Of a DNA stretch of 64,000 bases, positions 6,636-38,010 are shown piece by piece. Both the position numbers and the translations under genes were made by a program. The notes beneath the pieces are model-generated. The model was given only the letters and a program-made list of their open reading frames with translations. It searched no databases and was not told the origin of the DNA. How positions within the stretch are numbered: position 1 is the stretch's first letter; each line of letters starts with the position of its first letter. Source of the stretch: Apostichopus japonicus (taxonomy: Eukaryota > Echinodermata > Holothuroidea > Aspidochirotida > Stichopodidae); contig NC_092565.1 in NCBI RefSeq assembly GCF_037975245.1, positions 2,863,499 through 2,927,498 of the forward strand. The letters are read 5' to 3'.

Positions 6636-7217
6636 ATGTATCAATCTGTAAGAATCCTTCACAGTATCAATCCCTAAGAATATTTCACAGTATCAATCTG
6701 TAAGAATCCTTCACAGTATCAATCTGTAAGAACCATTCACAGTATCAATCTGTAAGAATCCTTCACAGTATCAATCTGTAAGAATCCTTCACAGTATCAA
6801 TCTGTAAGAATCCTTCACAGTATCAATCTGTAAGAACCATTCACAGTATCAATCTGTAAGAATCCTTCACAGTATCAATCCCTAAGAATATTTCACAGTA
6901 TCAATCTGTAAGAATCCTTCACAGTATCAATCTGTAAGAACCATTAACAGTATCAATCTGTAAGAACCATTAACAGTATCAATCTGTAAGAACCATTCAC
7001 AGTATCAATCTGTAAGAATCCTTCACAGTGTCAATCTGTAAGAATCCTTCACAGTGTCAATCTGTAAGAACCATTCACAGTATCAATCTGTAAGAATCCT
7101 TCACTGGATCAATCTGTAAGAATCCTTCACAGTATCAATCTGTAAGAATCCTTCACAGTATCAATCTGTAAGATTGTAAGAATCCTTCACAGGATCAATC
7201 TGTAAGAATCTTTCACA
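6636..7217. repeat. 26-bp minisatellite, about 22 copies
   Basis: Tandem units read CACAGTATCAATCTGTAAGA followed by ATCCTT. Most units end ATCCTTCAC; others end ACCATTCAC, ACCATTAAC or ATATTTCAC. The last class is preceded by CCCTAAG instead of TGTAAG, and its two copies (near 6660 and 6885) are about nine units apart, suggesting block duplication. An irregular junction near 7168-7180 shows a partial unit. Confidence 0.95.
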
Positions 7218-7230
7218 TTATGTATATGGG

Positions 7231-15658: not shown

Positions 15659-18368
15659 GACATTCAACTACAACATATATGTTGACAACTCATACTAACT
15701 TCACTGTTTAGGACACTCATATAAGCCCATGAGCTTACAGTTCGAGACATGAAGGGAAAGGGTTTGAGTGACGTAATAAGATCTAATGTAATTGAGTTAT
15801 ATAGCTCGGATTATGAGACCGAGTCCAAGTTTCTATACGTATCTGAAAAGCACTCACATCTGAAAGTACTGACGAACGTATTCATGTTATGAAAGATTGG
15901 TACACATTATAACGCAAGCCAAAGAAATCTTATCTCTTTTTTTTCTGTGTGCGGGCTTTTCTTGACTTCACATATTTTGTATATGCATGTATAGTGTTCA
16001 TGGTCGTGGTGATGGGGGGGGGGGGTGGGGAGGGGGAGAGGGGCATATGCGAGATGGCATGTAGGGTTCTGATTTGCCTCGACATCGGCCTGACTTGCAT
16101 TCCTTTTAAGTCGTCTCGGAATCATAATAGTATAGTTGGATTTGGATCTGACTCAATAACTTAGCTCTGAATTCTTCGGGTATATGGATTATTTTTCATA
16201 GATTCGTTCTTTGCAAGATATGCGTAGGCCCTACAGTTTAATAGGCTTTCAGTTAATATTTTCGGAAAGAAATTATATCAAAGACTTCTGTTGACTCGAA
16301 GACCTTTACAAATTCTGGTTGACAATTCATGAGACAAACACAAAAGGTGCCAGGTACGTTCTGTTCAAAAAAGAAAAACAGGGCAGTTTCACAGCGTGGG
16401 TGATCTTGTGTGGAGGCTCAACGTTTTGAAACATAAGGTGCGTAAGTGCGTAGCCAGAGGTTGTGGTGGGTTCACGACAAGCAAACCAATTTCGCTTGCT
16501 CCAAAAGTGACATTGCCTGGCATACCCGCCAGAAAATTCAGTTATCAAACAGAACCAGTGTTCGTACTTCTTGCGCAATTTGCTTCTCAAAATCCCTGTA
16601 GGAAGCCATTTAATTAATGTCCTTTACTTTTTATGGCCAACAAGTACATACCACGTTGTTCAATCTCAAAATACAATGTTACCGTAATAGTACTTCTGAA
16701 AACTGGATGCCACGAAAGAAGCCTTAGGCCCCAATGCACCGTACAGGATTACTTTTTGTGTACGTCTTAATTTCTCAGAACAGCGAAACCGTTTGACACA
16801 CATTTACTAAAACGTATTGAGACAGAGTTGTTTTTAATGCTGTAAAGTTCAGTCTCAACATGCGCATATTAATTTACTTGACATGTGTTATGCTCTTCAT
16901 GCCCGTATTATAGTTACATTGCCCTATACATGAAACATAACCTATACATATACAGTATATACCGGTGATCACATGCGGCGACGTTAACAGTTACAATTTT
17001 ATTACCCCTCTGCTTAATCGCCATCGAAGATTTATTTGATGAAGGATTGTAAAGGAATAAATAGCTGCAAAATTACTCGACAAATGATATCAGATTATCT
17101 GAAGATGCTGCTGGAAGGCGGAGGATAAGCTCCTCTTATCAGTAGAAATGTTTTGAAATGTAAGCGATAACTACATCAATTATGTCGTCTGTCATTTTCC
17201 TGCCGTGTGCAGCTGTATGCTTGCGGGGCGGTTGTCTCCCGTACAGAGAAACTATTGAATAACTTCAAAACTGAACTACTTTCATTTAAAGCGAAAGAGA
17301 TCGTGTTTGATTGACTTCGCAGGGCTCATGTTGGTATACAGTGCGGCGTCAAGAGATAGGTGGGCCCCGGGGAAATTCGGTACGTCACTGACACCCCCCC
17401 CCACCCTTTCTCGAAGTCGTAAGTATGAAGATGAGAGTGAATTATTATTATCCCATATTTTCTCGAATCCCCGAATGGACGCCGTCGGGACTGTAGTCCA
17501 CCTGACCCCTCTTTCGGTATACAAAGCGCGCCCACAAGACCGACATTTAAATTACTCTGCAGGCATTATCTAGAAAGGGACGCTACTGGCATTTTGATCA
17601 ACTCTTTTCTCTCTTTCGCTAATGCTTCCGTAGGAACGATGACGGTCTCGAAATAAATAACACATTGTGTACATAATTGTGTAATTGATTACTAATGACG
17701 TCCCAATATGAAAGGAGGGTAGAAAACATGCGCATGCTCATATTGCAATTCTCACAAAGACGGCGAAAGTTCCAACCATGTGCTACGTGTTTGACAAAAA
17801 AAAAAATATGAACACTTCAAAGAGAAATATATGATGTGACCCAGTCTGTGGATTATGCTGAGGCCAACATAACATTCACTTAACTGTGTAACCCTCGGAC
17901 ACAAAAAGAAAGAAAGAAAAGACAGAGGATCAGTTATTATATGTTGGAAAAATTCCACGACCGTTAGTCTGTAAGTATATGGCGCCATAATTCACAGTTA
18001 CACTTTAAGCAACAAGTGACATTTAGGCATGACATAATTATAAAGATACAACTCTCTGTGCTAGGGGCGACAAACTCTCAGCTGTTAACGAAGACAACAC
18101 CATTTTTTTTTTTTTTTTTTAAAAGAACATGAAACACACAAAATGATCTCCCCTTGACTTTGTCGGGTCGGATTTATGAATAAGTTCGAAATAATTGAGG
18201 AGGGCGTGTGTACAACTTGTGAGCAGTAAGACGTCGAAATATATAAAGGATCCTTGCCAGCGATTACTTTAGAATTGAAGAAACACAGTAACAGACATGA
18301 AAAATATAATTTACAGCACTGACATTTTCTTTTGTGTCAACATAAAGGTGTGTCGAAATTTGGATGGA
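15659..18368. other. intergenic, no gene seen
   Basis: No supported gene. It holds a poly-G run (16013-16025), a poly-C run next to TACGTCACTG (17378-17400, probably another decayed MITE end) and a T18 run (18102-18120). Confidence 0.45.
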
Positions 18369-19433
18369 ACATTAATGTTTTGAATGTATCACATATATGG
18401 GTGTATGATCAATAACATGGGCATAGCGTATGGTTAGACTTTTGTCAATATGTTGTCTCGATTGCTGCATTACTATGATATGCATGCTTCAGTAGTTTAA
18501 GATGTTAAGATGTCAATATAACATTAATGTTTTTAACGTATCACATATACGGGTGTATGATCATTAACATGCGCATAGAGTATGGTTAGACTTTTGTCAA
18601 TATATTGTCTCGATTGCTGCATCACTACGATATGCATGCTTCAGTAGTTTAAGATGTTAAGATGTCAATGTAACATTAATGTTTTTAATGTATCACATAT
18701 ACGGGTGTATGATCATTAACATGCGCATAGAGTATGGTTAGACATTTGTCAATATGTTGTCTCGATTGCTGCATTACTACAATATGTATGCTTCAGTTAG
18801 TTTAAGATGTTAAGATGTCAATGTAACATTAATGTTTTTAATGTATCACATATACGGGTGTATGATCATTAACATGCGCATAGAGTATGGTTAGACTTTT
18901 GTCAATATATTGTCTCGATTGCTGCATTACTACAATATGTATGCTTCAGTAGTTTAAGATGTTAAGATGTCAATGTAACATTAATGTTTTTAATGTATCA
19001 CATATACGGGTGTATGATCATTAACATGCGCATAGAGTATGGTTAGACTTTTGTCAATAAGTTGTCTCAATTGCTGCATTACTACAATATGTATGCTTCA
19101 GTAGTTTAAGATGTTAAGATGTCAATGTAACATTTATGTTTTTAATGTATCACATATACGGGTGTATGATCATTAACATGCGCATAGAGTATGGTTAGAC
19201 TTTTGTCAATATGCTGTCTCGATTGCTGCATTACTACAATATGTATGCTTCAGTAGTTTAAGATGTTAAGATGTCAATGTAACATTAATGTTTTTAATGT
19301 ATCACATATACGGGTGTATGATCATTAACATGCGCATAGAGTATGGTTAGACTTTTGTCAATATATTGTCTCGATTGCTGCATTACTACAATATGTATGT
19401 TTCAGTTAGTTTAAGAAGCTAAGATGTCAATGT
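18369..19433. repeat. 152-bp tandem satellite, seven copies
   Basis: Units begin AACATTAATGTTTT and start at 18369, 18520, 18672, 18825, 18977, 19129 and 19281, with the array edge at 19434. Spacing is 151-153 bp. Copies differ mostly by single substitutions; the first unit is the most diverged. Each unit contains CACATATACGGGTGTATGATCA and ends CAGTAGTTTAAGATGTTAAG. The array lies about 570 bp beyond the ZCCHC4 stop codon. Confidence 0.97.
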
Positions 19434-20000
19434 AACATTATATGATTTATATTAATGGCTTCTTTATCCATTATTTTTATGTAATGAAGATTTTATCACA
19501 ATATAGTAAAGAGTTGGAAGATGATGCCTTCAAATAATAGACATAAGAAATGACTTATATTTGCTGGTGTCAGTAGTGGGATAGATGAATGGAACTATTT
19601 ATTTTACATTGCCTTCCATTTCAACATTACTCAGAGATTGTGATAATCACATGTCAGAGGTCCAATAATATCACATACACATTACTGGCTGAGTATTAAA
19701 GAAGTTTTCAGATTCCAGCTTCCATGCAGATTTGTACATTTTCTCTATTCATAAGATAAGGTCCATAACCTTATTTTAAGATACTCCTCAGTCTCTACAT
19801 CCGTAAGCAATCTTTGAAACATTCTTGCTTGGATTGATCTTACATTCTTCCTCCCATCAGCATACATTGCTAAATCTCCTGTTATGTTGATTTAATCATT
19901 TCATACATCTGTATGAATATTCAGTAACATAAATCATGTAATCAACATGTAAAGGGTAAATTCCATTGTATCTTGATTTAAATTCATTATCAATCATTTT

Positions 20001-23000: not shown

Positions 23001-26000
23001 GTTTTAATTTATACACATTTAGAACAAACTTGGTTTGTAGGTAGGCTTTATTCAAGGTTTATAACAATTGAGGTAATACAAAGAAAAGACAACAAGGTTG
23101 CTGTTTGAAACCCTGTACCTCCCTTTGAAGGCATCAGGTATGAGATCCTCTCACCTGGTTTAACACAACGGTCACAGCTAGTACAATGGCGATATGTACT
23201 GCCATCCTTTGAGGGACATTTATTGCACTTGTCACAATGGAGATTTTCTGGAGCGGAGAATAGTTTGCACTTGGAACAATACCTTTAGTTTACAACAAAA
23301 GAAAGACCATCAACAGGACATTATTGTGATTTCATTATTAATGCATTGTGAACAGTTAAATTTAATGTACTTAGCAAAGCATTTAAGTTTTTTACATGTA
23401 AACCAGATGAGGGAGGGGGAGGGGGGTGTGGGGGAGGTGTAGAAGAGAACACACATGTGGGGAGGTGGAAGGCATGGAACAGTGATGATTGGTGGATGAC
23501 AGAATACGCCAGTATTTCTAATACTTGACACTAGTATTGTGTATAACCTACTAATGGTCCTGAAGAAAGGTTAATATCACAACATGTCAGAAATCATTCC
23601 CAAAGCACTTCAGGTATGACCTAGATAACATATTTAAGAAACCTTATATATAAACAAAGTAATGGATAAAATCAGATATCAAATGGATATGGTTATCAAT
23701 GTTGTTATTATTATCTGCATAATACTATCAAGTCAAGCAATCTCATATACGATTCTCTCCTAAGTTCCTGTGGGATCAGTAAACTCCCTTACCAGTAACC
23801 TTCATCAGCTGGTAATGAAATTTTTGCCGGGGAGATGTCGGTGAATATACGGACTGGTGAATTTTTGCTGGATTTTGAACCATTCTTGAAGAGCACATGG
23901 TTATCGTAAGACACCTGACAACAAACCAGATAAACATTCTTGAAGTTGTTAACTTTTCCGAGACATTAACTTTTATCAATATCTTGATAAATGCTTGAAG
24001 GATAAGACAGGCAAAGTCATTTTAACATTGTTGTGGGTACATTATACATTCTTGTACCACCCTCTCACCCCTCCTCCCTCACCCTCCTCCCTCACCCCGC
24101 CTCCCTCTCATTCCTCTTTCAAAGACAAGAAAAAATAATAATTCTCCTTACTTTATATCACTTCACTCATTTACTCTTTATTAAATGTTCAATTATATCA
24201 TAGTCATTGAGCAATCAAAGTGAAATTGGTGTTTGGTCATGAAAGCTTTTTGAATCATTTGAAAAAATTCTTCCTTAAACATTAAACAGGAACATCAAAC
24301 ATGAAAAAGAAGCACCATTGCTTTCTTACCTTGTAATCAAGCATATGGAAATTAGGAAGAGCTGATAATATTCTCTTTTCCATGAAATATGGAAATATCC
24401 ACATCACTGGTAAACTACCTGCTGAGTTGGTATCTTTGCAACGACGAGGAGAGTAAAATATGTATTTGATTATTATTATTATGTTAATATTACAGAAGTA
24501 TGTACAGTGATTGATAACCTAAACTGAAATACAAAGAGTCTCCCATATAGTAGGTAAATCACAGAAAGGTAATGAAAAGTACATAAATGGTGACCTGCTT
24601 AAATAAATATTGGGAGAAACACAAGAGAGTGCATAACAATTGCATGGAAAACTCTTTATTTGAGCGGCCAACCCGGTTGCTGATCAAAAGTTTAGCATAC
24701 TTTTCTTTGAAATTCCACATTTCTTCATTAAAGTGAGTGTCTTCACGAATTCTTTTTTTCTCTTTTAGTGTTTCTTATGCACCAGGCCATTGCAAATTCA
24801 ATAATGGTGCTTGATTAATCATTCCTCCCAACTACATAAATCAAGAAAACAAACAGATTATAGTTACACAAATACACTCAATTGTAACTAAAACCTAAAA
24901 GAAATGAGACAACCAGAGCTTAACCTAACCAATCTGAGCATTAACTGAACTGATAAAACACTTGTTGCAATGCCCTTCAAAATCATATGCCTCGCCCTTT
25001 AATCAAACAGATGTAAGTGCCTTCATAGCTATCTCAAATTCAATATATATCAAAGCTAAAAAATGTTGGCAATTCCAGAAATATCTGAACAAAATATCAG
25101 CAAACAGGTTTAAAATATTGTCTAGATGTACAAATTTATGAATGATTTCATGCGGTTTCTGTCATTTACTCAGCAGTTTCACAAACTTGCCATTCTGTCC
25201 TCTCAAATTTTCTAAATGGATTTGGTGCTCTCATGAAAGCTGAAGCATTGCCTTTGGTTTCTGGCCATTTTATTGGAAGTCCAAGGTTATTAGTTCTTAT
25301 TTGATCTATTAGGTTGCCTTGCCCCTCTTGATCATTAAAAAAATAGCTTTCAATACTTCCTTGTTATTTACAATCCTAAATTCTATGCACTTTAACACAC
25401 ACACAAAAGACAAAAGGAAAAGAAAATACATCTTACCTAAGCTAGAGGAATTTGTAATTTGAGATATTGTGAAGGCCAAAGCCTCTACCAAACCCCCAAA
25501 GGGTGGATCCATCACTAACAGCACCCTTTGGTTTCGGAGAAACGACTGAAGGGTGACTCGCGAGGAACCACAGAAGAAATAATCGTTGAACATGTTGTAC
25601 CTACAGAACTCAGATGAGCTGAAAAACTGAGCCTAGTAAGATAAAAAAAATAGAAGGCAACAACCAGTTAGATGAAAGAAACATGATTAAGTGACTTGAG
25701 TTAACACGATTATGGCTTGAGAAAACATGCTTAAATGACTTGAGTTAACATGCTTAAGTGACTTGAAAAACATGTTTAAGTGACTTGAGTGAACATGATT
25801 AAATGACTTGAGTAAACATGATTAAGTGACTGAAGTAAACATGCTAAAAGTGACTGGAGTAAAAATGATTAAGTGACTTGAATAAACATGATTCAGTGAC
25901 TTGAGTAAACATGATTAAATGACTTGAGTAAAAATCCTTAAGTGACTTGAGTAAACATGCTTAATTGACTTGAGTAAACATGATTCAGTGACTTGAGTAA

Positions 26001-29000
26001 ACATAACTAAGCTATGATTTAGAATCAAAGTCACCTTCTACTGAAATCTGGATGATGGACATGAACCATGACTTATCTGCTATAACAGGATCTTTTTTTC
26101 CTTTTGGAAAATTACTGGTACCTCAGAAAATGGAATCCCAAAAACAAAACACCAAAAGTAATAAGATCTATCGGATCAGGAAAATCTCAAAGGGATCAAA
26201 TATGAAGGCAAGCTAATGAAGCCACTGTATTAATCAGAGGACACATAAACTTCCATCATTTGTACCAAATGTAACATACAAGGTAAATTTTAAATCACAA
26301 TTTCATCAAAATTTAGCATATAAGTGTACTTACTATTTTTCGCAAATGGTAAATAAATTATTTACTTACAAATCTCTCATCGATATCAAGCAGCAAGCTA
26401 TCTATCTTGAGTTGAGCTTTGTCTTTTAGCAGAGTCTCATGAAGTCTGAAGAAGAGAATCATCAAATATTTCAACTTTCATCAGTAAACATGCATGTGGG
26501 AAGACAAAGTTCACTTCATGTGATTGCTTAGCACAAGGTTTTTGATAAAGCCTATCCACAGTTGATCAAAGTTTAAACTATTAGCCCTATGACATGAATC
26601 ATGTGTTCACAATGGAGGTGTTCAGAAACAACATTTCTGATGCTTGGAACAATAGCATTAATTTGAAACAAAAGAAAGAACAATCAATAGGATACTTTGG
26701 AAGAAATGTGTATAGTAATGATTTAACTTGTCAACTAGTGAATTGATATACTAAAGCAGAAAACTTAGCACGGTAATCAATGTTTCTTGTTGCGTATGCG
26801 GAAATATTATGACTATAGAGAGATGTGTCTTCATTATCATAGAACAACCAATATGTTGCAAAGAGCACAGGCTTGCTCTTTTGAGTGATGAAGGAGTTTA
26901 AAACAAATAAACAATGCTTTACACTTCACAGTTGTCTCCAGTAATACATTCAAAACATTGAGATTTAATTAAGTAGCTCATACTGTGTGGTATGTTGCAC
27001 ATTTACCTTGGAACTCCAACACAGAGGACTTTGTCAAAATGAAGAGACTTAATCGTCTTCACCAAGAATTCAGTTGTTCCTTTTGAAAACAGGTATTGCT
27101 GAAGAGAAGAAGTTAAGAGTAATTGCAGGAAAGTATTACATATTATCCACAGACATGAATACATTGAATCAGTACTAAATGTATGTTCAGTGCACCAAAC
27201 AGGATACACTTATCCAGAGAGAAATTTTATTCCAGCATGCAGCTCCCAAAGTGTAAACTGTTTTTCTCTTGTTAATTTCTGCTTTTTTTAAAGGCTGCTC
27301 AAACAGTTTTCATTAATTGTATTGTAAAATATACAAAGATAAAGACAAACCTGTAAAATATCATAGTAAAGGAATAATCTATAAATATTAACCTTTTTAT
27401 ATATATAATATGATATTGAAAACATACATACAATATCATCCTTCATCTATTGACACCTAAATGAAATTGATCTTTTCATTTTATTTGCTGACTTACTGCT
27501 TGGGACTTGTTGTTATTTCTGGCAGAGAGCAATTTGCTAGGTTGTTTCAACAGGGTATCAGAAATTCCAGTAGTAATCACATGATTCCTGTGCTCTTCAA
27601 TTTCAGTCTTGGTGGTTAGCAAATTGCAAGAATGGCAATAATAACGGTCTCTTTCTTTTACGAGCCTCAACGTCTCCATTCTGTATATGGAAGCAAAATA
27701 AAAATTCATGAAGCATTAAGAATAATCACAGAAAACACCTATAATGACAAATCTTCAGGCTGGTAACCTATTGATACACTTTCTTATAAGCTCTTACCAA
27801 AGTGGTCAGGTTTGCTTCCAACTTGATTGAACTGTAAGTTACAGATTGACAGATTGGAGAACAGTTGCAGATTAACCCAGTTATTCCTTCAATAGGCTTG
27901 CCAAAGGATATATTTTCTACCTCAGCAGTATAAATTGATGACATTTATTCCAGTGACTTTTTACTTGTGCATTAACCTTAATTTACTCACCGTGAATATG
28001 CATCACTAGAAGTTTCCTTCTCCTGGTTGTCTTCTGTTTTATTCATCTTTGAGCATTTCTGCCCTTTCAAATGAATGAAAGACTTCTCATCAAATGGTTG
28101 ATAAAACTTACAATATTTACGATCACGGTAGGCTGAGCAAGCAAAGAATCTTTTAACGTTGCCTTTGCCATAGTATTTCTCAAAGAGCAGTGTAGGACCT
28201 GTGTGTTTAGAATGACATATATAGAAAAAAATGGAACTCACGATAAATTTAGTCTGTCATGACAAATAAGACTTTTAGTTTGCTTTTTAATTATATCTTA
28301 CAGTTTGGGAACAACACTAGTTCTTATATAACAATTGTGTGTGAGGAACCACACCTTAAATGAACTAGATTAGCTTGGTATCAAGAGATATTCAGTCTTG
28401 AACCTGAGATCTAGGAGTTGTAAGTGCAAGATGGGCAACTCCTTGAACAGACATTTACAGTTCTCAAAAGAAAAGAACAGAGTAAACATCAGGATAGATA
28501 GACTAGGATAGATATAATATACATATGCATGATAAAGTGACAGGAATGTTGCACATCTGAAGAGAGTGAAACATAAACCCAACAAAGTTTTCAAGCTTAG
28601 AAGAGACACATTTTAAGTCTTTAGCACACAGATAGACAAATTCTGAGGTTTTGGGATCCTTTAATATGGGAGCAATGTTATTCTCCAACCATTCATCAAC
28701 TTAAACAATAAAATTCACATGTGCATAGGAAAGTTTGGGAAGTTTTTATCTGGGTTTATTTGTGATTTATAGGATATTTCAACATAACAGAAGGACAATG
28801 CATATATCTCTATCTTATGATCTTTTAATCATAAGATTTTTGGGAGATGGTACATCATTAAGTGTTGCATACATGATTTCACCACGGCCAAGATTAATTG
28901 AGTGTCCACTCGTGGCAACATATTTGCTATGTTCACAATATCTGTAAAATGGTCCGAAGTTAAATAACTTATGAAGTGGCTTCGTACCGTGTTCACAGTG

Positions 29001-32844: not shown

Positions 32845-33577
32845 ATAGATAGATAGAAAGAAACTTTATTGTCCATTACAGAAAACAGAAAACGGAAATT
32901 ATTTCCCGTCGACAGTAAACATAAAACAGTAGTGAATACAAACACAATCGTACAATAAACAAACTATAAGTGAACAGCTACGAAAATAAAACTAAATAAG
33001 CAGAACCAGAACAGTAACAGAGGCAGCACAGAGGGCTGCAAGTGACAGATCACACACTGTGGCCAAATCGCTTTGCACGCCGCGAGTTAAATAAGTGTAT
33101 TGCCTCAGGTAAGAAAGAATTACGGAACCTGGACGTTTTAGTATTGGGCACCTGTAATCGTATCCCGGATCTGTTGAAATGGTAAGACTATGAAAAGGGT
33201 ATGTGTGATCTTCTTTTATATTTTTTAGTTTCTTCATCAGACTCTCTTCATATATGGATGAGAGTGACGGAAGGCTTGAACCAATGCAACGTTCAGCTAA
33301 CTTCCGAACACGTTCCAACTCTGCCCTGTACTTCTTCGGCATACTGCCAAAGAAACATATAATACTAGTTATGACACTTTGGATGATTGACTGGTAGAAT
33401 AATTTCATGATGGTATAATTAACTCTGCATTGTTTTAATTTTCTAAGGAAATAAATTCGCTGGCAGGCTTTACCCTTAACAGCTTTTGTGTGAACATTCC
33501 AATTAAGTTTATTATCAATATAGTATACGTTCCCAGGTACTTGTAGCTTTCTACCCTCTCAACTACTTGGCCGTCAA
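32845..33577 (-). mobile_element. LINE 3' part (reverse transcriptase C-terminus and tail)
   Basis: The minus strand reads VERVESYKYLGT, then a one-base frameshift near 33515. It continues as IDNKLNWNVHTKAVKGKA, MKLFYQSIIQSVIT, and MPKKYRAELERVRKLAERCI to a stop near 32992. The 3' end has AATAAAGTTTCT followed by (CTAT)n, like tails of Rex1/Babar-type LINEs of the CR1 group. It is the downstream half of the LINE interrupted at 33578. Confidence 0.85.
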
Positions 33578-33773
33578 TTAAAGAGGCCATGACACGAAAA
33601 ATCCAACTCATCGAGAGTAACTTCCTCTGAATCTATGAGAAAATCTACGTTCAAAACTATCCTCAACACCTTGAAAACTTCAAGGACTAATTAGTAATTA
33701 ACGTTTTAATATTCGCAGCCGAAAATAGATATCTGAGAATGCGATTTCACAACAAGACAATGATGACGTCATG

Positions 33774-33781
33774 TTAGGAAC
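33774..33781. promoter_or_regulatory. TGACGTCA palindrome upstream of the THAP ORF
   Basis: A perfect CRE/ATF palindrome 158 bp before the THAP ATG, inside the left subterminal region. The right side has two copies in the mirrored position. Confidence 0.4.
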
Positions 33782-33938
33782 ACACGTGCAAAGCCCAGGC
33801 ATGTATCGGATGCGCGACGATCATACCGTTCCATATACAGTACACGCACATTTACACTGAGAGAACAACCACTGTATTACGCTATATCGTTAGAAATTTC
33901 AAGTTTGTTTTACAACTGTTGTAAACTATCCGAGAGAA

Positions 33939-34250
33939 ATGCCGGTCCGTTGTGTTGTTGAGGGCTGCATAAATATCATTACCCATGCAATTAGCCTTCA
34001 TCCATGGCTGAAGGACGAAAAAACACGGCGATTATGACCAAGTGAGTGCACAACACCAGCGCCGATTTCACTGGGCCTAGCCAGTATGCAGCTCCGAATG
34101 AAGCGAACACTTCACGGAAGCATACTACGATCCCTCCTTTTTGTTATGAAATAAAACAAATGGACTTTAACGGTTCGACATAAAAGAGTCATTCTTCTGT
34201 CAAGTAATCCACAAAAAACTACTCTGAAGACCAGATCGGGGAACAGGAAA
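33939..34250 (+). pseudogene. THAP zinc-finger protein remnant
   Basis: The ORF opens with MPVRCVVEGC, the characteristic THAP start giving the first two Cys (C5, C10). It continues to SLHPWLKDEKTRRL and stops at a TGA (34035-34037). After a one-base loss the next frame continues TSADFTGPSQYAA (about 34050-34100). A third frame then gives SEHFTEAYYDPSF, where the CSEHF box should be, and DFNGST follows near 34160. At least two frameshifts are present and the third Cys is lost. THAP domains bind DNA and occur at the N-terminus of P-element and Kolobok-type transposases. In this TTAA-bounded element it is most simply the transposase start, though a host THAP gene captured by the element cannot be excluded. 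Confidence 0.75.
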
Positions 34251-34991
34251 CCTCCAATGGGGCAAGTGGCGATCCTTAGGAGGTAGCGCGCCGAGCACTA
34301 GTAGTACTATAGTATTAGCGTTACTACACTGAAGTCGCAATAGACGAAGAGATTTTACTGTATCATCTAAATTAACACCCCCTTCATTGCTCTATTGTAT
34401 ACTAATAAGCTATGAGGTTAGCTTCAGAAGCGATGGGTTACATCTTCTTGTGAACAAATCTCAGTGCCCCAATTTATTTCTGGAATATGCTGGATCAGTT
34501 AGTTATAGCAATAATTTCTTATTCCTATTCCAGGAAAATCATTTTTTATGTTGTGGAGGGAGTGGGGGTAATGGGGATGGGTCAAAATAGGTAGGTAAAA
34601 AGATTTTATTCCAAAGGGTGTTTAATTAAATCTCAAAGCGATTTATTTTAAAGTCACAGAGCCAAAAATTCACACCACATAGTTCAAGTGTTAAATCATT
34701 GAACAAAATTTATTCAATATCAGTTCTAGACAGTCATTCTGGACAATCTGAACTAACATTAACAACAATCATTGTATTATATGACATAAAAGTAAAACTG
34801 TACTTTCCATAAACATTATCATTCTTAAATTACACTAATGTAATTTGTGACATCAAAGGAGGTTAAAAGAAAACAACTTACATGAATTTTTTGGCTTTAA
34901 GCCTACAAAGCAGTTGCATGTCCATCGCTATCAATCGTTGTTATGACAAATTAATTAGAATAATCCAGAAGCAAATACAATAAAGGGTTAT

Positions 34992-35297
34992 TTAAACCAA
35001 GAAACACTGCACAAAGTAACTCACATGCAAAAATGTTACACAAGCACGACGACACGTACAACACTGATGGGCAATGTGAAACACAGCATCACACGTATTA
35101 AAACAATCGAAGACCATTAACAGGGTGTACTGCTGAGTTTTTGAAGAAAGACTACAAAACAAACCAACTGCTGCTGAAGAAACAAAGTCTAAACATTCAA
35201 GAGTTCTGCTGCCTCCATTGGTGTTTATTATGACATTTCTGTCAAATATCATTGGTGATATGGATATTTTGGCTTCCAGATTAAAGGTACGAATCAA
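34992..35297 (-). other. unassigned ORF inside the TTAA element
   Basis: A 101-codon open stretch between the THAP and ballast-like remnants, Cys-rich near its end (HQCCTCRRAC). I cannot relate it to a transposase or to the ballast domain. It may be a degraded exon or 3'UTR of the minus-strand gene. Confidence 0.2.
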
Positions 35298-35483
35298 ACG
35301 TCTGGGAGGTAAATGCCCCTAAAAGGGTCAATGCCCGTTCCCTTATGCACATATTATATGACATCACGGTCACGCCAATACTTGTGTCCAAATGCTTCAA
35401 AACATGCCTTTTCTTTCATTGTTGATGTTGGGTCTGGAAAATAACCTTTTCATCCTGAATTAAAAGTCTTGAATTTCAATATA

Positions 35484-36448
35484 TCAACACTGAGGGAACC
35501 CTGACGGATTGATAATCCAACACAATCGTAGTTTAGAAAAGGTGTTTCTGGAGGAATTTCTCAACCAAGGCTTCCTATACAATGAGTTTTCTCCTGGCAA
35601 CTTGAATCCAGTGTAATGACCATTGGCTGGAAAATCACTTCTGATCCTTTGGACTGCACATGATGGTAGCACAACCCTGACGTGTCTTGCTAGGAACCCC
35701 AAGTATCCTTGAACCTGTTGACCGTAGACTATGTATCTCTGTACTGCCTGGGAAAAAAATTATGAAAGTTCAAAATGTATTAATGTTGGCCATGATGTCC
35801 ACAATATCAAGCAGGCATACAATGTACAGTTATGGTTACATTTGTTGTGATATTACACCTTCCATGTATCATGAAACATTCTTTTGTTTCAGAAAATTGA
35901 TTTGCAAAACTCCAGGCCAAAGTACTAGCCAAGTAATAATGAGTATGAAATAACACATATGCCTACCTAGCATGGCTGCATAATGCAACTTACATCCCCG
36001 AGCCAAACTTTCAGTATGCAACCAACCCTACTAGTACTACACACTCTACATATGGGTTGTAAGTTACCGTAACACAACGCTCAATACGGTTTAGGGTGTT
36101 CCGCGAATTCCAACAACACATGCACAAAATGGACTGGATTTTGTTTTTAAATGCTTCGTTAATAAATTCTTACCACGTTGTATGTTCCTTGCAATGGTTT
36201 CGAACGGATTTCTTCTTCGATATGTTGTGGAGCTTCAATTTCGGCTCGTTTAACAGGCTCGAACTGATACGGTTCTAACACCTCCGCTCCACCCTCAACG
36301 TTCGGTTCAATATTGGAATGATCATCGCCTTCACTCTCTGCTTCGAATATGAGAAAGGGCACTCTAATTATAGCCCAATTTCACTGCCTAGTGAAGAACC
36401 ATTATCACTTTGAACTTCGGTTGCCGCAATTGGTTCTGGATCCGCCAT
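35484..36448 (-). pseudogene. P2X7 ballast-domain-like gene, broken
   Basis: Exon 1 runs from ATG 36448 to a donor at 36174. It starts MADPEPIAATEVQSDNGSS but hits TAA at 36368-36370. A shifted frame resumes with EAESEGDDHSNIEP, VLEPYQFEPV and GTYNV, then GTAAGA. Exon 2 (35747-35484) has a good acceptor in the same phase 0. It encodes RYIVYGQQVQGYLGFLARHV, RVVLPSCAVQRIRSDFP and YTGFK before the stop. PYQFEP and the RHVRVVLPSCAV...YTGF block are typical of P2X7 C-terminal (ballast) domain proteins, which form large families in invertebrates. The CxC zinc-binding middle expected between the two parts is absent here, and the intron contains no obvious copy. The gene is therefore probably dead. 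It lies wholly inside the TTAA element. Confidence 0.72.
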
Positions 36449-36592
36449 TTCACAGGAAATTTTGATTTGATATCGTACTTGTGATCGGTGTTTTGTTTAG
36501 TAACTACTAGTGGTATGTGTACTTGTCTACTGTGTACGTGAATGGTATATTTGGAGGATCGTAAGCAAGCGACAACAAATGTGTTCAAAACG

Positions 36593-36610
36593 TGACGTCA
36601 CATGACGTCA
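36593..36610. promoter_or_regulatory. paired TGACGTCA sites upstream of ballast-like gene
   Basis: Two perfect CRE/ATF palindromes at 36593-36600 and 36603-36610 (10-bp period) lie about 145-165 bp before the minus-strand ATG. They mirror the single site at 33774 near the other end. Confidence 0.45.
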
Positions 36611-36796
36611 TGCGAATCGGAAAATTTTCGAGTAAACAAAGTTTCAAACGCCGAAAAGGGTAAATTCATTCTCAATTTTCGACTTGAAAAATCAAGTTTT
36701 AAACTGGCAGATTGGTTGATACATGTTCTAGAGAACATTCTTTGATGGATCCCAAAAATATAGGACTTTGAAATTTTCGTGTCATGGCCACTTTAA

Positions 36797-38010
36797 GACA
36801 TGATCATGGACAAAATTTCCTTTCCTAAAATCGAACACTAGTTCCTTAGTTTTATTTATATTTAACATCAGACTGTTACTTTAACACCAACCAACAAATT
36901 TCTGTACTTCACTAACAAAGGCAGAGCTGTCATTATTATAAAGAAGACCAGTCAGCACGGTATCATCAGCATATTTGATAATATTGCATTAGTCACTCAG
37001 TATTTTACAATCATTTGTGTACAAGCAGAACAGCACTGGTGAGAGCACACATCCTTGGGGGGCACCCGTACTAATGACACACTGGTCAGATCTGGAATAA
37101 CCCATTCTGACCATCTGAGGTCTACAACGCATATAATTGAGGACCCACAGAACGATGTTATAGTTTACTTGCATGTCTCACAGTTTTTGTACTAATATAT
37201 TGGGCTTAATAGTGTTAAATGCACTCGAGAAGTCAATGAAGATTGACCTCACAGACGTTTTGGGTTGGTCTAAGTGCTTCAAGACCCCATGCAGGTAAAC
37301 AAGTATTGCGTCATCTACACCTCTTTTGCTTTGGTAGGCAAACTGATTTTCATCTATAACAACACCTTTTTCAGCTAGAAGAAGTTTTAGTACCACCCTT
37401 TCCAGACATTTCATGATATTTGACGTGAGTGATATCGGACGGTAATCATTTAAACATGAGACCACTTTTGTTTTAGGAACCGGGATTATGATTGAGGTTT
37501 TCCATATCTCGGGAATAACGCCCTCATCAAGTGTTCTTTGGAAAATCGGAGTGAACACTGGCGCTAGCTGAGAGCTACATGTTTTTATTAACATATTTTG
37601 GACCCCGTCTGGGCCTGTGGCTTTATTTATCTTAACACTAGAAAAATATTTCCTGACAACAGTTTCACTTACAATAACTCTGTCACTACCAGTGTTAGCA
37701 CAATTGAGACTATTCCTCAATTTTTATCAATTCCTGCATTAACCAATTTATCGCTACTCACATCAAACCTACAATAAAAGTCATTTAAGTCATTAACCAG
37801 TTTTTGTCCATCTCTAATAGGTCCACTTTTATGTTTCCCTTTATAATCAGTTATACTTTGCATCACTTGCCAGGCTGCTTTCGAATTACCCCCCTCAAAT
37901 TTATCTTCCAATTTCTTTCCGTACTCTTTTTTACATCTCTTAACTTCCTTAACTTCATCTGGGCAGTCATCTGGGCATATGCTCTTCAAAAGCTTCACTT
38001 AGGCTATAAT
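36797..38010 (-). mobile_element. LINE 5' part (reverse transcriptase core)
   Basis: On the minus strand the linker KLLKSICPDDCPDEVKEVKR leads into INKATGPDGVQNMLIK, LNDYRPISLTSNIMKCLERV, IFIDFSSAFNTI (motif A), GAPQGCVLSPVLF (motif B) and YADDTVLTG (motif C; codons at 36962-36973). Stops occur between motifs B and C and again after C. The copy is 5'-truncated near 38010, without an endonuclease. With 32845-33577 it forms one CR1-group LINE split by the TTAA element. Confidence 0.9.

Follow-up and report, generated by a model that had tools for sequence, protein, structure and literature searches.

A dead KolX (P2X7-ballast) gene in a TTAA transposon of Apostichopus japonicus and its likely Kolobok ancestry

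How does a relative of the cytoplasmic ballast of the P2X7 receptor come to lie between the inverted ends of a DNA transposon, and does it serve any purpose there? The question is raised by a stretch of 64,000 nucleotides from the sea cucumber Apostichopus japonicus (contig NC_092565.1, positions 2,863,499 to 2,927,498; hereafter the window), in which an earlier note had placed such a gene beside a THAP remnant, within an element at 33582-36792. This element is very probably a non-autonomous member of the Kolobok superfamily, descended from a Kolobok in which the genes for a THAP-DDE transposase and for KolX were convergent. KolX is described as the second protein of the Kol0 lineage of Kolobok and carries the cytoplasmic ballast fold; P2X7 is reported to have arisen when a P2X4-like gene became fused to KolX (Kojima and Bao, 2022; PMC9587614). 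The link between KolX and the P2X7 ballast has been in print since 2022, and what is new here is a dead, non-autonomous member of a Kolobok family. Since the core idea is already published, the value of the present analysis lies in confirmation, numbers and test material.

The window element is a complete, TTAA-flanked DNA transposon with 25-bp inverted ends (AG...CT). With the TTAA counted in, these ends (33578-33606 and 36768-36796) are complementary at 26 of 29 positions, and the boundaries given in the earlier note, with TTAA on both sides and near-identical inverted ends starting in AG, are exact. Kolobok termini read 5'-RR and YY-3' (Kojima and Bao, 2022; PMC9587614); the first two bases of the element are AG, and both the termini and the TTAA target duplication are thus those of Kolobok. 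The insertion host is a minus-strand non-long-terminal-repeat (non-LTR) retrotransposon. When the flanks are joined at a single TTAA, the reading frame is continuous over the junction. Searched against the genome (671,581,487 bases in 35 contigs), the 204 joined bases return 37 rows, of which 28 span the junction and 7 are shorter pieces; two are the window locus itself (1-104 and 101-204), overlapping in the 4-base TTAA. Because the TTAA ends are accompanied by a frame that spans the junction and by uninterrupted copies elsewhere, the element got there by transposition with TTAA duplication and is not a chance inverted repeat. Its longest stop-to-stop open reading frame (ORF) has 108 aa and no Pfam match, and the element lacks the DDE transposase with the C/DxxH signature, reported for Kolobok and its kin (Kojima and Bao, 2022; PMC9587614), that an autonomous Kolobok would carry.

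The ends define a large family. TTAA plus the 19-base end motif has 352 exact matches in the genome (179 forward, 173 reverse), and none for the reversed control. Among the first 100 ends listed there are 33 pairs within 10 kb, and 28 of these span 3114-3221 bp. Twenty copies were fetched as the top rows of the left-end search, a choice biased toward near-identical copies; all contain the element sequence, and 18 have both ends, flanked by TTAA in 17 cases. Fetched copies with these ends carry the ballast gene, in line with the earlier note. The 17 copies that could be aligned with the window (18 sequences; L022, of 4286 bp, is omitted, as are L013 and L020, for each of which one end was found) are 98.5-99.5% identical to their consensus. 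As judged from these top-ranking sequences, the family is homogeneous and appears to have spread recently. None of the longer or deviating copies qualifies as an autonomous partner: L069, L070 and L022 have extra sequence at one point, the insert of L022 apparently with inverted ends of its own (by eye), L020 contains an insert with a retroelement-like ORF (also judged by eye), and L071 is a form with a 1447-bp deletion.

The ballast gene of the window is broken. Its second exon (RHVRVVLPSCAV..YTGF) matches Pfam P2RX7_C at E 5.1e-7 (30.2 bits against a cut-off of 23.5), and this remnant is the counterpart of the ballast-fold KolX that marks the Kol0 lineage and is intact in other families. The best protein match is a Holothuria leucospilota cluster, listed on 9 contigs. 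A query pieced together from the broken gene matches P0001, a standalone sea-cucumber 'P2X7' of 224 aa, at 38% identity over 93% of the query length. By tblastn, P0001 residues 1-33 align to 36448-36350 and residues 28-92 to 36368-36183 (both minus strand; E 1.6e-12), and residues 174-224 to 35738-35586 (minus; 72.5% over 51 aa, E 3.5e-23). The earlier note was right about the domain of this 'two-exon gene'. The gene itself is, however, a pseudogene, with a stop (TAA) and a frame change in exon 1. Between the exons the cysteine core is unrecognisable in the window, 12 of 300 shuffles scoring as well as the observed sequence. Seven cysteines surround two zinc ions in the ballast-fold protein (Kojima and Bao, 2022; PMC9587614), and the aligning part of the window gene retains the SCAV cysteine alone.

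These lesions are shared by the family. The bases of the exon-1 TAA are present in all 18 aligned sequences and in frame in 17; in the remaining one a 2-base insertion just upstream shifts the frame. Exon 2 has a TGA in 17 of the 18, the exception being the window. The exon-1 stop being in frame in all but one of these sequences, the family spread when its KolX gene was already dead, and its copies therefore multiplied without having to supply KolX themselves.

The transposase side of the element is decayed as well. THAP domains are usual in Kolobok transposases (PMC6004289), and the earlier note recognised a THAP start, which yields no Pfam THAP match either in the window or in the family consensus; against the protein database it gives 3 candidates, none at E<=0.001. 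The identification stands through a sister copy. Across the genome, 557 THAP candidates were listed, of which 150 were scored and 145 matched; among them is an open THAP at C9:22148760-22149017, which lies 350 bases inward from an exact copy of the window-family end at C9:22148410. Compared with the family consensus, this copy, L072, has 77% identity in its first 779 positions and 92% in a stretch of 296 close to the right end. The THAP of L072 matches Pfam at 9.2e-14 and shares 61.5% identity with the window remnant over 52 aa. By this comparison the THAP expected of a Kolobok is present, apparently decayed in the window and intact in a copy with the same end, and with the TTAA and the AG ends it upholds the earlier assignment to a Kolobok-type element. 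The coordinates are collected in Table 1.

Table 1. Parts of the window element and of its insertion site, in window coordinates.
Feature	Position	Strand	Evidence
Insertion site: 3' portion of the non-LTR retrotransposon into which the element is inserted	32992..33558	-	joined flanks read through ...FRKGNFVHDHVLIDGQVVERVESYKYLG; uninterrupted copies elsewhere
Left TTAA target-site duplicate	33578..33581	.	sequence; empty-site search returns the window locus as two rows with 4-base overlap
Left terminal inverted repeat, AGAGGCCATGACACGAAAAATCCAA	33582..33606	+	exact matches to TTAA and the 19-base end motif, 352 in the genome
Remnant of transposase THAP-domain exon	33939..34181	+	61.5% identity over 52 aa to L072 THAP exon
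Element middle without transposase ORF; DDE core probably lost	34182..35485	.	comparison with other families
KolX/ballast exon 2 (P0001-matching part 35586-35738); 3' splice-site AG 35749-35748	35487..35747	-	Pfam P2RX7_C E 5.1e-7; tblastn P0001
KolX/ballast exon 1; ATG 36448-36446, TAA 36370-36368, then frame change; 5' splice-site GT 36173-36172	36174..36448	-	tblastn P0001
Right terminal inverted repeat, AGTGGCCATGACACGAAAATTTCAA on minus strand	36768..36792	-	self-comparison; end-motif genome matches
Right TTAA target-site duplicate	36793..36796	.	sequence; empty-site search
Insertion site: reverse-transcriptase portion of that retrotransposon	37178..37723	-	Pfam RVT_1 E 3.3e-11

What the intact gene may have looked like is seen elsewhere in the genome. 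A P2RX7_C search, in which the best 150 of 471 candidates were scored, was accompanied by searches of 14 control genomes, which gave no match. Neighbours were checked for 89 of the 150 ballast rows (the first 57 and the next 32), some of which are themselves window-family copies, such as C3:20786847 in a 3160-bp pair; the last 61 rows, omitted, have one TGA each and a profile start at 138-143 and resemble window-family copies. Four of six ballast loci fetched at length (L059, L060, L062 and L063) have a transposase ORF of 548-575 aa on the opposite strand, and L061 and L064 have none. PF20700 matches three of the four transposases, L062 being without a Pfam match, and all four contain the blocks GDxR..TDxH..DVWH..ESF, in which DVWH fits the C/DxxH signature.

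The two genes lie together far more often than by chance. The L059 transposase has 93 matches in the genome, clustered to 61 loci, and a transposase lies within 8 kb of 33 of the 89 ballast rows (32 of the top 57 and 1 of the next 32), convergent in all 33; two further rows among the next 32 have one at about 10 kb. With 8 kb added at each flank, the 61 loci make up about 0.15% of the genome, from which about 0.1 of the 89 rows would be expected. Members of a family are not independent of one another, and the 33 convergent pairs should not be read as 33 separate events. The ballast occupies the same convergent position in families whose transposases are 44-57% identical, and three copies with transposase matches listed at 100% identity have open ballast frames alongside.

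A second family, with both genes, could be delimited by its ends. In the stretch L067+L062+L068, TTAA-AG ends stand 10,768 bp apart, with open frames for both ballast and transposase between them; the ends match at 14 of 16 positions, the best of 300 block-shuffles reaching 13. The end motif of this second family, TTAAAGNGGCGTGGTCGT, has 52 genome matches and none in the control. Within 20 kb its ends form 14 plus/minus pairs; ballast and transposase rows both lie inside 11 of these, and a transposase row alone inside 1. Elsewhere in the genome, then, TTAA elements contain ballast genes next to a DDE transposase, as the earlier note had anticipated. The ends of the L059 element were not found in 12.8 kb. 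At C23:15500381-15517519, two 8.57-kb elements with ballast and transposase are arranged head to tail with one TTAA in common. The second end family also includes two unusually long pairs of about 16.7 kb, bounded by TTAAAGGGGCGTGGTCGT (C16:19310234-19326905 and C16:19481523-19498215); no ballast or transposase rows lie inside either interval.

The THAP domain has a distribution of its own. At C17:20707092-20715426, rows for THAP, DDE transposase and ballast follow the order of the window relic. At least eight transposase loci (C7, C16, C17) are preceded, at a distance of 2.8-5.1 kb on their own strand, by a THAP row, a lower bound, as the pairing took in 71 of the 145 THAP rows. Among the rows checked, a convergent ballast accompanies only one of the eight, at C17:20709390, and THAP-bearing and ballast-bearing Koloboks therefore look like partly separate groups.

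The KolX proteins of these relatives appear to bear traces of selection. Ratios of nonsynonymous to synonymous substitution rates (dN/dS) were estimated by NG86 for 20 pairs more than 70% identical; the pairs share members, which makes the result an indication rather than a test. Ten of the 13 older pairs (dS >=0.07) have dN/dS <=0.33, and the other three have 0.49, 0.72 and 0.75; recent pairs are above 1 or without synonymous change. For L032-L033, dN is 0 and dS 0.17 over 119 codons, in 3.4-kb stretches that are 88% identical. All seven cysteines are invariant across 9 KolX-related proteins, six of them from this genome. The KolX of L059 matches residues 465-592 of human P2X7 at E 4e-22, and its AlphaFold model (mean pLDDT 73, pTM 0.61, 9 sequences) has a predicted fold that retrieves 14 chains at E<=0.001, all of them P2X7. 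By sequence and by this predicted fold, L059 KolX resembles the solved C-terminal ballast of P2X7 (9e3m, 6u9v, 8tr5); it differs in being a standalone protein, with an N-terminal stretch of its own, that resides in a transposon.

Low dN/dS and invariant cysteines together argue for past selection on KolX, and hence for a use, most simply in transposition. The sequences suggest that KolX in the intact relatives is a working protein of the transposon rather than a passenger, and most likely it aids transposition. The earlier note had suggested that the ballast may have spread as a passenger. This rival, a host gene picked up by chance and without a role in transposition, finds some comfort in the window family, which spread with a dead ballast gene, in the three older pairs at dN/dS 0.49-0.75, and in the intact ballast genes L030, L031, L041, L042, L043 and L057, which have no transposase row within 8 kb. 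It is quite unlikely all the same: it fits poorly with the shared convergent position in such divergent families, with the ten low-ratio pairs (non-independent as they are), and with the published view that KolX is resident in the Kol0 lineage (Kojima and Bao, 2022; PMC9587614). Several divergent families, convergence in every near pair and low dN/dS fit a resident second gene. On balance, we lean towards the reading that KolX does a job in Kolobok transposition for which selection has kept it, in convergent arrangement with the transposase even between families with as little as 44% transposase identity, and that non-autonomous copies can do without a KolX gene of their own. The fold of the P2X7 ballast would then have been in the service of a transposon first, and the ballast itself would be a transposition factor that was domesticated.

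Several observations weigh against this account of the window element and its relatives. No transposase row lies within 8 kb of 56 of the 89 ballast rows, among them the six open genes just named and some window-family copies. An intact transposase with the window family's own ends was not found in the fetched part of the genome, and one of the 18 two-ended copies, L026 (C9:31558900-31564200), has TTTA on both flanks, a non-canonical target. THAP, DDE and ballast in the order of the window are found at one locus, the C17 interval above; C12:21120509-21132388 holds all three within 12 kb in a different order, and the ballast element read end to end (C9:3886614-3897381) contains no row of the THAP list. 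The Kolobok call for the transposases rests on TTAA/RR ends (one family), PF20700 in three of four and the DxxH signature, not on a reference tree. L064:1347-1985 (C19:11523823), an open ballast ORF of 213 aa that lacks a transposase row within 8 kb, is a candidate host gene or orphan family; against the protein database it gives 30 candidates, none at E<=0.001. L061 (C17:16720000-16727200) belongs to a multi-copy family with open ballast genes (L030, L031, L041) and no matching DDE transposase row, and the ORFs of 392 and 274 aa near its ballast have no Pfam match over the cut-off.

Two other classifications of the window element can be weighed. KolobokP, or another named sub-lineage in place of a Kol0-like element, would suit the host, as there is a report of KolobokP in this species (Kojima and Bao, 2022; PMC9587614). 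It is nonetheless very improbable, since KolobokP carries a His-Me nuclease, not KolX, and has terminal direct repeats of ~450 or ~660 bp (Kojima and Bao, 2022; PMC9587614); in a self-comparison of the window element, the 29-bp inverted repeat is all that its ends have in common, and direct repeats of such length are absent from the termini. A piggyBac element, which would share the TTAA target and, in a few families, a KolX-like protein, is hardly credible given the AG ends (the Kolobok RR, set against piggyBac by Kojima and Bao, 2022; PMC9587614), the THAP exon, the absence of any ORF over 108 aa in the element, and the DxxH signature of the ballast-paired transposases elsewhere.

A Kolobok ancestry of the window element suggests the following history, which starts from the ends, target duplicates, copies and shared lesions observed above. 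The ancestral Kolobok would have carried a convergent pair of genes, with a THAP-DDE transposase encoded from the left end and KolX, a small zinc-cysteine protein of the P2X7 ballast fold, from the right. The DDE core would then have been deleted and the KolX frame lost, leaving a 3.2-kb relic with working ends, which was presumably copied into TTAA sites by a transposase supplied in trans. The ballast of P2X7 would be a captured KolX, as already proposed in print; on this point the earlier note was right in essence, although it had been preceded (Kojima and Bao, 2022; PMC9587614).

The closest known systems are the Kol0 Koloboks with KolX, of the Kolobok-1_XT type, which share TTAA, RR..YY ends and the pairing of a transposase with a seven-cysteine ballast-fold protein (Kojima and Bao, 2022; PMC9587614). 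By contrast, the window copy is a 3.2-kb non-autonomous relic in which the DDE core is gone and KolX and THAP are broken; sea cucumbers are not among the Kol0 hosts named in the available part of that paper. The XKol and T2-MITE elements of Xenopus are alike in their TTAA, AG ends, THAP transposases and non-autonomous offspring, whereas 'KolX' and 'P2X' do not occur in the available text (PMC6004289). Standalone ZCD or nanor-like proteins have the same domain without a channel, and the capture of the ballast is described there without a transposon; 'transpos', 'Kolobok' and 'THAP' have no occurrences in the main text as available (Rump et al., 2020; PMC7016195). In the literature searched, 'KolX' as a whole word is found only in Kojima and Bao (2022), as is the combination of 'Kolobok' and 'sea cucumber', and P2X7 occurs together with Kolobok only there and in one review (PMC9319628). 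If the P2X7 ballast is a former transposon protein, its ancestral activity is to be sought in transposition. The A. japonicus genome offers recent elements with transposase and ballast frames both open as test material, and if KolX is a working part of transposition, they give direct access to what the ballast did originally.

Outside the element, Rfam gives no matches over the window, and self-comparison shows three tandem repeat arrays, at 18364-19448 (offsets of ~152 bases), 6638-7221 (multiples of ~26) and 25673-26010 (~67-90).

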